NCBI RefSeq assembly: GCF_018717645.1 | Contig: NZ_JAFLHG010000001.1 | Span: 124,001-188,000, forward strand | Origin: Microbacterium flavum | Lineage (GTDB): Bacteria > Actinomycetota > Actinomycetes > Actinomycetales > Microbacteriaceae | Length of the DNA stretch: 64,000 nucleotides | Reading direction: 5' to 3' | In this document: positions 28,079 to 30,770 of the stretch, in pieces | Layout of the letters: every line of letters starts with the position of its first letter | How positions within the stretch are numbered: the first letter of the stretch is position 1 | Program-made: the position numbers and the translations under genes | Notes under the pieces: model-generated | What the model was told of the DNA's origin: nothing | The model's input: only the letters and a program-made list of their open reading frames with translations | The model's database searches: none

Positions 28079-28378
28079 TCAGCCGGCGGAGCGCCGGGCG
28101 AGAAGACCCGCATGTCCGGGGTGCGCGTCGAACCAGTCGGCGACGTACCAGCAGACGGGGCTGACCACGCGATCACCGCGGCTCTCGAGGTCCTCGACAG
28201 CGCGCGACACGATCTCGCCGGCGTACCCGTGCCCTCGGAAGGAGGGGATCGTGTACGCCCGGGTGAGTGAGACGGTGCGCCCGTCGTCGCGGTAGTCCAG
28301 CACGCTCACGAGGTCCCCCGCATGGTGGAGCGTGTACCGCGAGGCGTCCTTCTCATCGGTGAAATCGAACCCGGTCAT
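28079..28378 (-). CDS. Small GNAT-type N-acetyltransferase (YjdJ-like)
   Basis: A 99-residue single-domain acetyltransferase-like protein. The core SLTRAYTIPSFRGHGYAGEI holds the acetyl-CoA loop (R-G-H-G-Y-A), followed by VSPVCWYVADWFDAHPGHAG, the usual ending of the short GCN5-related family (DUF7671/YjdJ-like). Start: the ATG at 28378 has TAGCGT exactly 7 nt upstream on the minus strand, the leaderless arrangement seen elsewhere here; an in-frame GTG three codons earlier overlaps that box and is unlikely. Confidence 0.83.
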   Translation of the reverse strand: MTGFDFTDEKDASRYTLHHAGDLVSVLDYRDDGRTVSLTRAYTIPSFRGHGYAGEIVSRAVEDLESRGDRVVSPVCWYVADWFDAHPGHAGLLARRSAG

Positions 28379-28468
28379 GACCTCCACGCTACGCCGCGCC
28401 GACGACCCCGGCGCGGGTTGTGCACTCTGTCACATTTCGATCGGGGAGCACCCTCGAAGGTGTGCGGT

Positions 28469-28498
28469 TTGACACAGTCGGGCACGGTTCGTCATAAT
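28469..28498 (+). promoter_or_regulatory. Strong sigma-70-like promoter of the leader peptide/regulator unit
   Basis: A perfect -35 box TTGACA (28469-28474) and a -10 box CATAAT (28493-28498) are 18 bp apart. Transcription would start 7-8 nt after the -10 box, at or within a base or two of the ATG at 28506. This is the best consensus promoter I see in the window, and it points to a leaderless short frame. Confidence 0.72.
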
Positions 28499-28505
28499 CA
28501 GGCAC

Positions 28506-28604
28506 ATGACTGACAACGCACGCTTTCTGTCCGCCCGGGAGGCGAACGGATCTGCCGGCATCATGATGCCGCGCGTTGCCATGTGTTGCCGAATGTGTAT
28601 CTGA
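28506..28604 (+). CDS. Probable Met/Cys-rich leader peptide (attenuator uORF)
   Basis: A 32-codon frame beginning at the predicted transcription start. The peptide is MTDNARFLSAREANG followed by SAGIMMPRVAMCCRMCI and stop: seven of its last thirteen residues are Met or Cys, including a Cys-Cys pair. Leaderless poly-cysteine short ORFs are known in mycobacteria as cysteine-responsive attenuators of downstream genes, and this one has the same logic (a run of sulfur amino acids just before the stop). The next gene is a winged-helix regulator 218 nt downstream. Function is inferred; the sequence shows only the frame, the promoter and the composition. Confidence 0.6.
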   Translation: MTDNARFLSAREANGSAGIMMPRVAMCCRMCI

Positions 28605-28822
28605 CGGTCATCCCCGCCGGGTCCGCCCTCCGCCTCTGACGTTCCTCTCGGAACAGGAGCAGCGACCCCCGAGTCACCGCACACCTCCGCCCACGACGCG
28701 GATGACGGATGCCTCGACACCGGCCCGCCCGCACGACGCGGACCGCCCTCGCAACACACGCTCGAACCCGACCTTCCGCGCACGGTGCGCCGTACGGGTT
28801 CCGCCCCGAAGGACCTCTCCTC

Positions 28823-29602
28823 ATGTCGACCACCGCCCTCCTCGCCCCGCCCGCTCCGCGTCTCGCCCCGCCCGCGACCCCCGCCGCTGCGCCGCGTCAT
28901 CTGCACGCGATCGATCCGGCATCCACCGCTCCGGCCGCCCCGGCATCCGCCCCGGCGCCCGCGTCGCCGGCCGCCACGGGCGCCGCGACCCTGCCGGCGG
29001 GCACCGCCCCGCGCGGCTTCGCCCTCTACGTGGGCCTCGACGAGCTCAAGGCCGCCGCCGACGGCGTCTCGCTGCAGACGATCGTGACCGCTCTCCGCCA
29101 GACCCTCGCCGACCTCGCGCCGCACGCCGAGAGCTATGCGACGGTGGCGCTGGCCCCGGCGTCCGCCGGCGGACGCGACGTCGACGTCGTGCGGCTCGCG
29201 CTCCACGAGCCGAGCGCCGTCGCGCGCACGAAGGCCGATGAGCCCGACCCCGATCACGTCCCCGGCGGCGTCACGATCGACATCTCGCGCCGTCGGGTGC
29301 ACATCGACGGCGAGGGCGCTGCGCTCACCTTCAAGGAGTTCGAGCTGCTGCAGTACCTCGTGCTGCGCGAGGGTCGCACGATCGAGCGCACCGAGCTCGT
29401 CGGATCGCTGTGGAGCCACGCGGATGAGGACGAGGTGCCCGGCGAGCGCACGATCGACGTCCACGTGCGGCGCCTGCGCGCGAAGCTCGGCCGCTATGAG
29501 GACATCGTGCGCACCGTGCGCGGCATCGGCTACCGGTTCGATCGTCACGCCGACGTCGTCATCCGGTTCGGCCACGGAACGCCCTCGCCCGACCGCTTCT
29601 GA
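28823..29602 (+). CDS. Winged-helix (OmpR/PhoB-type) DNA-binding regulator without receiver domain
   Basis: A 259-residue protein. Residues 1-65 are a Pro/Ala-rich disordered tail; 66-135 form an uncharacterised domain (RGFALYVGLDELKAAADGVS...); about 155-250 form an OmpR/PhoB-type winged helix: GVTIDISRRRVHIDGEGAAL, LTFKEFELLQYLVLREGRTI, RTIDVHVRRLRAKLG and TVRGIGYRF. There is no phospho-accepting receiver, so it is not a classical response regulator. ATG chosen at 28823 with GAAGGA 9 nt upstream. The long leader with the Met/Cys-rich uORF suggests control by sulfur amino-acid supply. Confidence 0.85.
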   Translation: MSTTALLAPPAPRLAPPATPAAAPRHLHAIDPASTAPAAPASAPAPASPAATGAATLPAGTAPRGFALYVGLDELKAAADGVSLQTIVTALRQTLADLAPHAESYATVALAPASAGGRDVDVVRLALHEPSAVARTKADEPDPDHVPGGVTIDISRRRVHIDGEGAALTFKEFELLQYLVLREGRTIERTELVGSLWSHADEDEVPGERTIDVHVRRLRAKLGRYEDIVRTVRGIGYRFDRHADVVIRFGHGTPSPDRF

Positions 29603-29621
29603 CGGGTCGCCGCCGGTTCGC

Positions 29622-29701
29622 AGGTGCCGAAATGCGGGTGCCGCGCCCCGCCACCCGCACGATGGCGCCTCCGGATACGGGCCATGCGCACATCGGCGCC
29701 T
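29622..29701. repeat. Cluster of three ~18-bp palindromic units after the regulator gene
   Basis: AGGTGCCGAAATGCGGGT (29622-29639) pairs imperfectly with ACCCGCACGATGGCGCCT (29653-29670) across a 13-nt loop, and a third unit in the same orientation as the second, ATGCGCACATCGGCGCCT, follows at 29684-29701. The inverted pair is a likely terminator of the regulator gene. The same unit type forms the hairpin at 49817-49869, so this looks like a REP-like family. Confidence 0.6.
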
Positions 29702-29741
29702 CGGAACGTCCGGTGTCGACGGCGTGACGTAGGGTGACGGC

Positions 29742-30770
29742 ATGACGAGCGGCGCGGTGACCCGACCGCGGGTGGGCGCGCCGTCGGGCGGGATGACACC
29801 CGGCGGGATGCCGCGAGGTGCGGCGTCGGCGCGCGCGACGCGCGACCCGCGCCCTGCGGCCGGGCGCCCGATCGAGGCGGAGTACCGCCCGCGCACGCCG
29901 ATCGACGCACACCGGGCGATCGCGCTGCAGCAGCGCGGGGCCCACGATCCGGCGCAGACCACCGCCGCCGGGGTCATCTGGCGGGCGAGCCGGACGCCGC
30001 AGGGCATCGCGACGATCGCGGTCCGCGTCGAGCGGACGCGCGTGCGGGCCGCCGCATGGGGTCCCGGCGCCGAGTGGATGCTGGACCAGCTCCCCCGCCT
30101 GTGCGGCGCCGACGACGACCCCGCGGGCTTCGACCCCGGCCGCCATGCGCTCGTCGCCGACGTGCACCGTCGACACGCTGATCTGCGGCTCGGGCGCACC
30201 GACCTCGTCTTCGATGCGCTCGCCAGCGCCGTCTTCGAGCAGAAGGTGACGGCTCTGCAGGCCTTCGGCGCGTGGCGGATGATCCTCACCTGGTGCGGCG
30301 AGCGCGCACCGGGGCCGACCCCCCGGCCACTGTTCGCGCCGCCCGCGGACTGGCACCTCGTGCCGAGCTGGACGTGGCATCGTGCCGGGCTCGAGCCGCC
30401 GCAGTCCCGCACCATCGTCGCGGCCGCGCGGCGCCGGGGCGGGGTCGAGAGCGCCGCGGCATCCGCCGACACCGGCGAGGCGCGCGATGCCGTGTTCACA
30501 AGCCTGCCGGGAGTCGGGGTGTGGACGAGCGCGGAGGCCCGCATCCGCGCGTTCGGCGACCCCGATGCGGTGAGCGTCGGGGACTACCACCTCGCGCACC
30601 AGGTCGGCTACGCGCTCACCGGGCATCGCGTGGACGACGACGGCATGGTCGAGCTCCTCGAACCGTGGCGGGGGCACCGCCAGCGCGTCATCCGCCTCCT
30701 CGCGCTCAGCGGCGTCTTCGAGCCGCGCCGCGGCCCCCGACTCGCCCCCGAGGATCACCGCCGCAGGTGA
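29742..30770 (+). CDS. DNA-3-methyladenine glycosylase II-like (AlkA family) protein
   Basis: A 342-residue base-excision repair glycosylase of the HhH-GPD superfamily. It removes alkylated purines from DNA. The middle contains the helical core (LVFDALASAVFEQKVTALQA), then the helix-hairpin-helix SLPGVGVWTSAEARIRAFGD and the catalytic segment DPDAVSVGDYHLAHQVGYAL, where the Asp of VGDYH is the expected catalytic residue. The first ~45 residues are Pro/Arg/Gly-rich and not conserved. TAGGGT lies 6 nt before the ATG, so a leaderless transcript is likely. Confidence 0.85.
   Translation: MTSGAVTRPRVGAPSGGMTPGGMPRGAASARATRDPRPAAGRPIEAEYRPRTPIDAHRAIALQQRGAHDPAQTTAAGVIWRASRTPQGIATIAVRVERTRVRAAAWGPGAEWMLDQLPRLCGADDDPAGFDPGRHALVADVHRRHADLRLGRTDLVFDALASAVFEQKVTALQAFGAWRMILTWCGERAPGPTPRPLFAPPADWHLVPSWTWHRAGLEPPQSRTIVAAARRRGGVESAAASADTGEARDAVFTSLPGVGVWTSAEARIRAFGDPDAVSVGDYHLAHQVGYALTGHRVDDDGMVELLEPWRGHRQRVIRLLALSGVFEPRRGPRLAPEDHRRR

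Follow-up and report, generated by a model that had tools for sequence, protein, structure and literature searches.

Leaderless poly-Cys uORFs of mycobacteria are reportedly the subject of a study by Canestrari in 2020. Another paper presents Cys-rich leaderless uORFs as candidate attenuators in these bacteria (Shell 2015, PMC4633059). The uORF described here was found in the window, i.e. the whole 64,000-nt stretch of Microbacterium flavum DNA that was analysed, and it resembles the mycobacterial frames in that it is short, predicted to be leaderless, provided with C-terminal Cys codons and located upstream of a gene that it possibly controls. It differs from them in its sequence, with a CC-R(CGA)-M ending instead of a plain Cys run, and in what lies downstream, namely a transcription factor gene and not a Cys-metabolic operon, with a leader of 82-309 nt in between (79 loci). 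As for the whiB7/wblC attenuator, which answers ribosome-targeting antibiotics, the likeness lies in a transcription-factor gene of Actinobacteria controlled by a uORF, as is proposed here, and the difference in the Cys-CGA ending, which belongs to the uORF in the present case. Concerning ilvB1 of M. tuberculosis and the trp/his-type attenuators, as treated in PMC13236596, the features in common would be regulatory codons in a leader peptide and alternative pairings set by the position of the ribosome, whereas a terminator-like site was detected here in just 1 of the 79 leaders (vs. 5 in shuffled leaders) and the structural gene is not biosynthetic.

The regulator gene (28823-29602, plus strand) codes for a receiver-less OmpR/PhoB-type winged-helix protein of 259 aa, according to Pfam and profile searches. 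Its sole Pfam match is Trans_reg_C (PF00486, E 7.4e-21, residues 164-239), in agreement with the description of the downstream gene in the sequence-only reading. The winged-helix C-terminal domain is shared with GlnR and the OmpR/PhoB regulators, but no receiver was matched in Pfam, and the N-terminal stretch is conserved and covered by no Pfam model. In a profile comparison with solved chains, OmpR-family regulators came out best, with 8hml, 8hig and 8hih first, which we take to be GlnR; the structure model of the protein has a mean pLDDT of 49.3, too poor to judge the fold. All 199 genomes searched in the family Microbacteriaceae gave a match to the regulator, about 193 of them at E 1e-45 or better. 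None of the conserved neighbour genes could be named, simple ORF calling being too noisy in GC-rich DNA. Two side observations concern the homologues: a record named Planococcus sp. APC 4015 (L192) holds a Microbacterium-type regulator (83% identity) and is probably a misnamed or contaminated assembly, and two loci (L254, L299) have MPRLLLTQRRAVDLMRVASQLCR upstream of a distant homologue, a peptide that presumably resembles the actinobacterial leader peptides ending RxxVDLxRVxSxxCR.

Upstream of the uORF, the plus strand carries a promoter (28469-28498) made of a -35 box TTGACA (28469-28474), an 18-nt spacer and a -10 box CATAAT (28493-28498). A search of 28400-28900 for sigma-70-like sites gave this one and no other (0.0 in shuffles, sd 0.1), and TTGACA-N18-CATAAT has a single occurrence in the genome. 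The ATG of the uORF (28506) lies 7 nt downstream of the -10 box, and the frame (28506-28604, plus strand) encodes a peptide of 32 codons, MTDNARFLSAREANGSAGIMMPRVAMCCRMCI, with the C-terminal AMCCRMCI, before the stop TGA (28602-28604). It is followed by the 218-nt leader (28605-28822, plus strand), in which the Shine-Dalgarno (SD) GAAGGA of the regulator gene was read at 28808-28813. No terminator-like site was found in 28400-28900, and Rfam gave no match in 28300-29100 and none at gathering score in the whole window. On the minus strand, a 704-aa open frame (28430-30544) runs antisense to the uORF and the regulator gene, and is probably a high-GC artefact.

Promoter and frame are both present as the sequence-only reading had claimed, and the frame is kept in all 80 loci read across the family. 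In 76 of these 80, a -35-like box begins 35-38 nt 5' of the uORF ATG, a spacing that would suit a transcript start at the ATG itself; the leaderless arrangement claimed at the outset thus has a conserved geometry, and leaderless translation of the uORF is a well-supported prediction. Reading from the promoter-placed ATG leads in frame into the CGA-ATG ending in each of the 76 loci with a box, 32 of these frames having a length other than 33 codons, which speaks for conservation of the frame, a point that the sequence-only reading had proposed to check in other Microbacteriaceae. This promoter-anchored count is used because the finding that all ATG-to-CGA distances are multiples of three follows in part from the method by which the frames were picked.

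The distribution of the uORF was followed with a profile built from 25 uORF peptides. At E<=0.05 it recovers the uORF in 152 of the 199 family genomes, which belong to 71 of the 85 genera, and at E<=0.001 in 97 of the 99 Microbacterium genomes, with one strong match per genome. Since the profile finds the frame across the genomes of the family and of the genus, the uORF is not due to chance, and the observation is confirmed as real, well beyond what a single genome could show. The uORF stands upstream of the orthologous regulator in each of the 80 loci (79 stretches taken plus the window, from about 70 genera). Ten of them (L130-L139) were included precisely because the uORF had escaped the profile or had not been placed by it; with the profile they reach low scores of 5 to 22 bits, and their assignment, which rests on the position and the shared ending, is weaker. 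Nineteen further loci, mostly from genomes missed by the profile, consist of 13 with a frame ending CGA-ATG, this ending being itself the search criterion, and six without, and a twentieth genome (0.9 Mb) gave no regulator match at E 1e-10. The uORF peptide belongs to no known family in NCBIfam, PHROGs or Pfam, the plasmids searched gave no match, and searches of open-licence PMC papers brought up nothing on this uORF.

Outside the family, matches to the uORF profile are weak (296 genomes of the class; best non-family E 0.004), and the frames inspected at 13 non-family loci with such matches looked like chance. Searching from the regulator, on the other hand, reveals diverged versions of the uORF in other families of the order. 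In family f2, a filter for an in-frame CGA-ATG ending retains 10 of the 18 loci (CCRMHA, CRRMQA, CCCRMQP, etc.); among the eight that fail it, one (L275) has TGTTGTCGAATG in a longer frame. Two of the seven f6 loci (L290, L291) have QRMPMLCVRDLTC, the rest showing diverged Cys-containing frames or none seen, while one of the two f8 loci ends RACCRS and the single f26 locus ends VASQLCR. The leaders of f6, f8 and f26 have a different look, yet Cys is present at the end of these frames, upstream of the regulator or its homologues.

In the window, the codons for Met-Cys-Cys-Arg-Met-Cys form ATGTGTTGCCGAATGTGT (28581-28598, plus strand), with CGA at 28590-28592. All 80 loci, in the choice of which CGA played no part, use CGA for the Arg that precedes the last Met, a codon that makes up 86 of the 1796 Arg codons (4.8%) within the matched portions of their regulator genes. 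CGA is also found in all 35 Microbacterium uORFs of another set (three shared with the 80). The stop follows it at a distance of four codons in 78 of the 80 loci, and the distance is likewise fixed in the 10 f2 uORFs with the ending. As for Cys, at least one falls within the last nine codons in all 80 frames, and exactly three in 59 of them; the codons are mostly TGT (62/75, 53/64 and 44/74 at the three positions). The C-terminal Cys stretch, whose conservation the sequence-only reading had proposed to check in relatives, is retained even where its position shifts (MCACRMCCCC, MMCCAGGACRMCR); L130 and L131 read RRRMCR and SRRMCR.

For 31 sequences of the genus, the pN/pS of the uORF is 0.51 overall, with 0.73 for codons 2-17 and 0.34 from codon 18, and for 77 sequences of the family it is 0.73 overall, with 0.95 in the N-terminal half and 0.53 in the C-terminal half. 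The C-terminal half is therefore kept as codons and nucleotides, and the N-terminal half hardly as a peptide. Entropy is alike at the three codon positions. Conservation of the nucleotides only, and not of the frame, had been named beforehand as a finding that would speak against a leader peptide: it applies in part, mainly to the N-terminal half (CGA always, TGT mostly, pN/pS of 0.51 and 0.73 in genus and family), but the frame is conserved as well.

Promoter geometry, frame, Cys cluster, CGA, complementarity to the leader (see below) and gene pairing are all conserved, and the reading that we favour, with a probability of roughly 0.55, is that the uORF is a cis leader-peptide attenuator of a transcription-factor gene that senses Cys codons. 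Transcription would start at the uORF ATG, where ribosomes would initiate without an SD. Near the end of the uORF, the ribosome would read the Cys cluster (mostly TGT) and then the invariant CGA and, when charged Cys-tRNA is scarce, it would wait at the Cys cluster, with Cys as the putative signal. The position of the ribosome would select the pairing of the 3' end of the uORF (UGUUGUCGAAUG) with a leader segment 5' of the regulator start, and the Met-run segment would form its own hairpin or pair with the region around the SD and AUG of the regulator. This choice of pairing would set how much regulator is made, with a possible contribution of Rho at the C-rich leader, and the regulon would thereby be tied to the decoding of Cys codons.

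A bolder extension, to which we give a low probability, is that CGA itself is the timer in a family-wide, possibly order-wide, translation-gated switch of a master regulator. CGA is read by an inosine tRNA, and UGU-UGU-CGA would act as a series of slow wobble codons; the footprint of the ribosome would free the Met run and hide the Cys-Cys-Arg-Met segment, and Cys-tRNA charging and wobble decoding would be read jointly into the level of the master regulator.

The strictness of CGA bears on an explanation that we consider unlikely, in which the ribosome undergoes a programmed stall at Arg(CGA)-Met, caused by the nascent chain or by the codon, and the signal is not the charging of Cys-tRNA but, e.g., redox state, an inhibitor or inosine-tRNA wobble decoding; the Cys residues would then belong to the arrest motif. 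The most invariant elements are indeed R and M with CGA (80/80), stricter than any single Cys (cf. L130 and L131), and 78 of the 80 loci have the same spacing between CGA and stop. In a his leader assay, CGA is decoded slowly (PMC4046918), which would suit the attenuator as well, and the invariant CGA of the uORF is probably slow to read. Such a stall is at odds with the fact that only R and M are near-invariant, the N-terminal half being weakly constrained (pN/pS of 0.73 in the genus and 0.95 in the family), and that Cys stays enriched though its position moves. Arrest peptides usually require a longer conserved peptide.

The complementarity between uORF and leader was scanned with 16 sliding 14-nt uORF segments in 79 loci. 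The Met run exceeds the shuffles by 3.29 (sd 0.21) and the Cys-Cys-Arg-Met end by 1.73 (sd 0.29), two overlapping neighbour segments reach +0.8 to +0.9, and the other twelve range from -0.98 to +0.32. In the window, the self-complementary GGCATCATGATGCC (28557-28570, plus strand) lies around the conserved Met-codon run (ATC ATG ATG here), and codon-aware RNAalifold puts a hairpin at the Met-run position of the alignment. The sequence-only reading had given the Met codons a share in the sensing, a claim that finds no support in that form: the Met run is absent in several loci that otherwise keep the uORF (e.g. L132, L133, L135-L137) and stands out in its complementarity to the leader, for which reasons the Met codons may be an RNA element rather than a sensor.

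CATCAT is present in 44 of the 79 leaders (6.4 expected from dinucleotide shuffles, 1.8 from simple shuffles) and 37 of 68 loci have it no more than 50 nt from the regulator start, compared with 6 of 179 other genes that possess an SD. The window's own leader is without a CATCAT partner, and L132-L135 retain CATCAT though their uORFs lack ATGATG. The complements TTCGAC and ATTCGA occur in 23 and 19 leaders (2.7 and 1.4 expected, simple shuffles), vs. 1, 7 and 5 leaders for the direct ATGATG, GTCGAA and TCGAAT (0.8, 1.8 and 1.3 expected), the last two being mildly enriched: complements are thus enriched far above direct copies. Outside the family, GCATTC is found in 7 leaders of 13 loci (11 f2 and 2 f6; 0.2 expected) and matches CGAATGC, the ending of most uORFs in those loci.

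At the level of the window, GCAACACA (28751-28758, plus strand) is the exact complement of uORF positions 28582-28589 (TGTGTTGC). It was found with the 20-nt uORF end, not with the 14-nt end, and its pairing score of 20.0, vs. shuffled means of 16.9 and 17.1, is unremarkable alone. When uORF ends and leaders were swapped between loci, matched pairs scored above permuted ones over the last 110 nt (z 2.8, p 0.0014) and over the whole leader (p 0.0076), a modest effect; no covariation was seen for the Met segment (p 0.15), and the five segments used as controls were null. The idea that the CGAATG end has one constant partner at the start codon was abandoned, such a partner being limited to some clades (ATTCGACA in 11 of the 79). 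Just 5' of the SD, GAACCCG ... CGGGTTC (28764-28801, plus strand) would form a hairpin, for which other Microbacterium loci have the compensatory forms GAGCCC/GGGCTC and GATCCG/CGGATC. The best SD-proximal stem scores 17.1 vs. 14.3 in shuffles (sd 0.5) for 33 loci and 15.6 vs. 13.9 (sd 0.1) for the 79 family loci, and hairpin scores over the 58 nt that follow the uORF stop are no better than in shuffles.

Two other repeated arrangements were observed in the leaders. In many genera, GCCGAGTTC ... GAACTCCCGG recurs within 60 nt 3' of the uORF stop and could form a hairpin. In a single clade (L069, L077, L090, L097, L122, L129 and L132-L135), a long block, CGAAGGATCACACCCTCATCATTAGAGGCCCTTCACC, precedes the regulator with small variations. 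Two nested stems, GAAGG/CCUUC and CCUC/GAGG, could form in this block and would leave CATCAT in the loop; it is retained without the Met run in L132-L135.

Counted against the attenuator are the partner sites, which are not universal, and the lack of such a frame in 8 of the 18 loci of f2 and in 6 of the 19 additional ones of the family. CGA, moreover, is stricter than its presumed pairing partner, so that pairing alone cannot explain it. Complementarity between uORF and leader would also suit a structured cis RNA or a DNA operator, in which the open frame would be of little import and conservation would serve base pairing or protein binding; the constraint on nucleotides (CGA always, TGT over TGC) and the like entropy at the codon positions go in the same direction. 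This explanation nevertheless appears distinctly improbable, given that CGA-ATG shares the frame of the promoter-placed ATG in all 76 loci with a box, 32 of these frames not being 33 codons long, and that the leaders are enriched mainly in complements. Furthermore, GTTGYCGAATGTG is present exactly once in 30 of the 39 genus genomes, more often in 6 and never in 3 (control zero) and, being mostly single-copy per genome, it is not a repeated operator. An operator for the regulator, or another DNA operator, inside the uORF was likewise rejected as the main cause, the motif being mostly single-copy and complements dominating the leaders.

As a whole, the 79 leaders contain 41.0% C and 23.6% G, vs. 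32.7% and 35.0% in 176 control upstream stretches, and an 80-nt stretch with C-G > 0.25 is found in 43% of the leaders vs. 1.1% of the controls. C-rich and G-poor, they would be Rho-site-like by composition only. This composition, together with the terminator-like site seen in 1 of 79 leaders (5 in shuffles), would fit translational coupling or Rho control via any short translated frame, without amino-acid sensing, but the conservation of Cys and CGA would then be left unexplained, and we hold such control alone to be very improbable. Least probable of all is a functional small Cys-rich protein acting in trans, e.g. in metal or redox binding: the close-set Cys at the conserved C-terminus would suit it, but few C-terminal residues are kept, lengths vary from 22 to 44 codons, each genome has one strong match and the constraint acts on codons.

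Returning to the Cys-sensing attenuator, a stall was modelled with RNA energies only, the ribosome being placed at the first Cys codon with an assumed 30-nt footprint. The modelled stall hides the Cys-Cys-Arg-Met segment, the local pairing of the Met run falls from 4.95 to 1.25, and its summed pairing with the start region goes from 2.56 to 5.92 in the 42 loci with CATCAT and from 0.74 to 2.2 in the 37 without. The opening cost of the start region is raised by 0.98 kcal/mol (sem 0.24; 79 loci); changes of more than 0.5 are upward in 43 of the 79 loci and downward in 16, the window having +0.26, and the controls gave -0.37 for an upstream block and -0.16 for a ribosome at the stop. The paired fraction from SD to AUG hardly changes (0.551 to 0.521 with CATCAT, 0.518 to 0.536 without) and rises somewhat in the genus sets (0.68 to 0.73 and 0.52 to 0.61). 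The effect of a stall would, in this model, run opposite to the usual direction of an attenuator. The result could be turned around by Rho or by coupled initiation, and the direction given by the model is provisional.

Concerning sulfur, a smaller NIR_SIR protein, read here as an assimilatory sulfite reductase of the SirA kind, was found, with open frames of 580-778 codons, in 7 of 16 Microbacterium genomes, the larger NIR_SIR alone (866-1148) in four and none in five. With the uORF kept in all 16 of those genomes but the smaller NIR_SIR in only 7, control of sulfate assimilation is unlikely as the regulator's only role. Such a patchy presence goes against what a putative Cys/Met regulon would lead one to expect. 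No Cys-rich uORF (by filter) was found before the SirA-like gene in the 7 Microbacterium loci that have it.

Cys-sensing leader peptides are known for a few mycobacterial operons. If the uORF is indeed a Cys-sensing attenuator, the ribosome would read the amino-acid supply before the regulon is set, and would do so in most of the Microbacteriaceae genera examined. An uncharacterised orphan regulator would thereby receive its first candidate signal, and the invariant synonymous CGA would provide a handle on codon-speed sensing in a natural attenuator.
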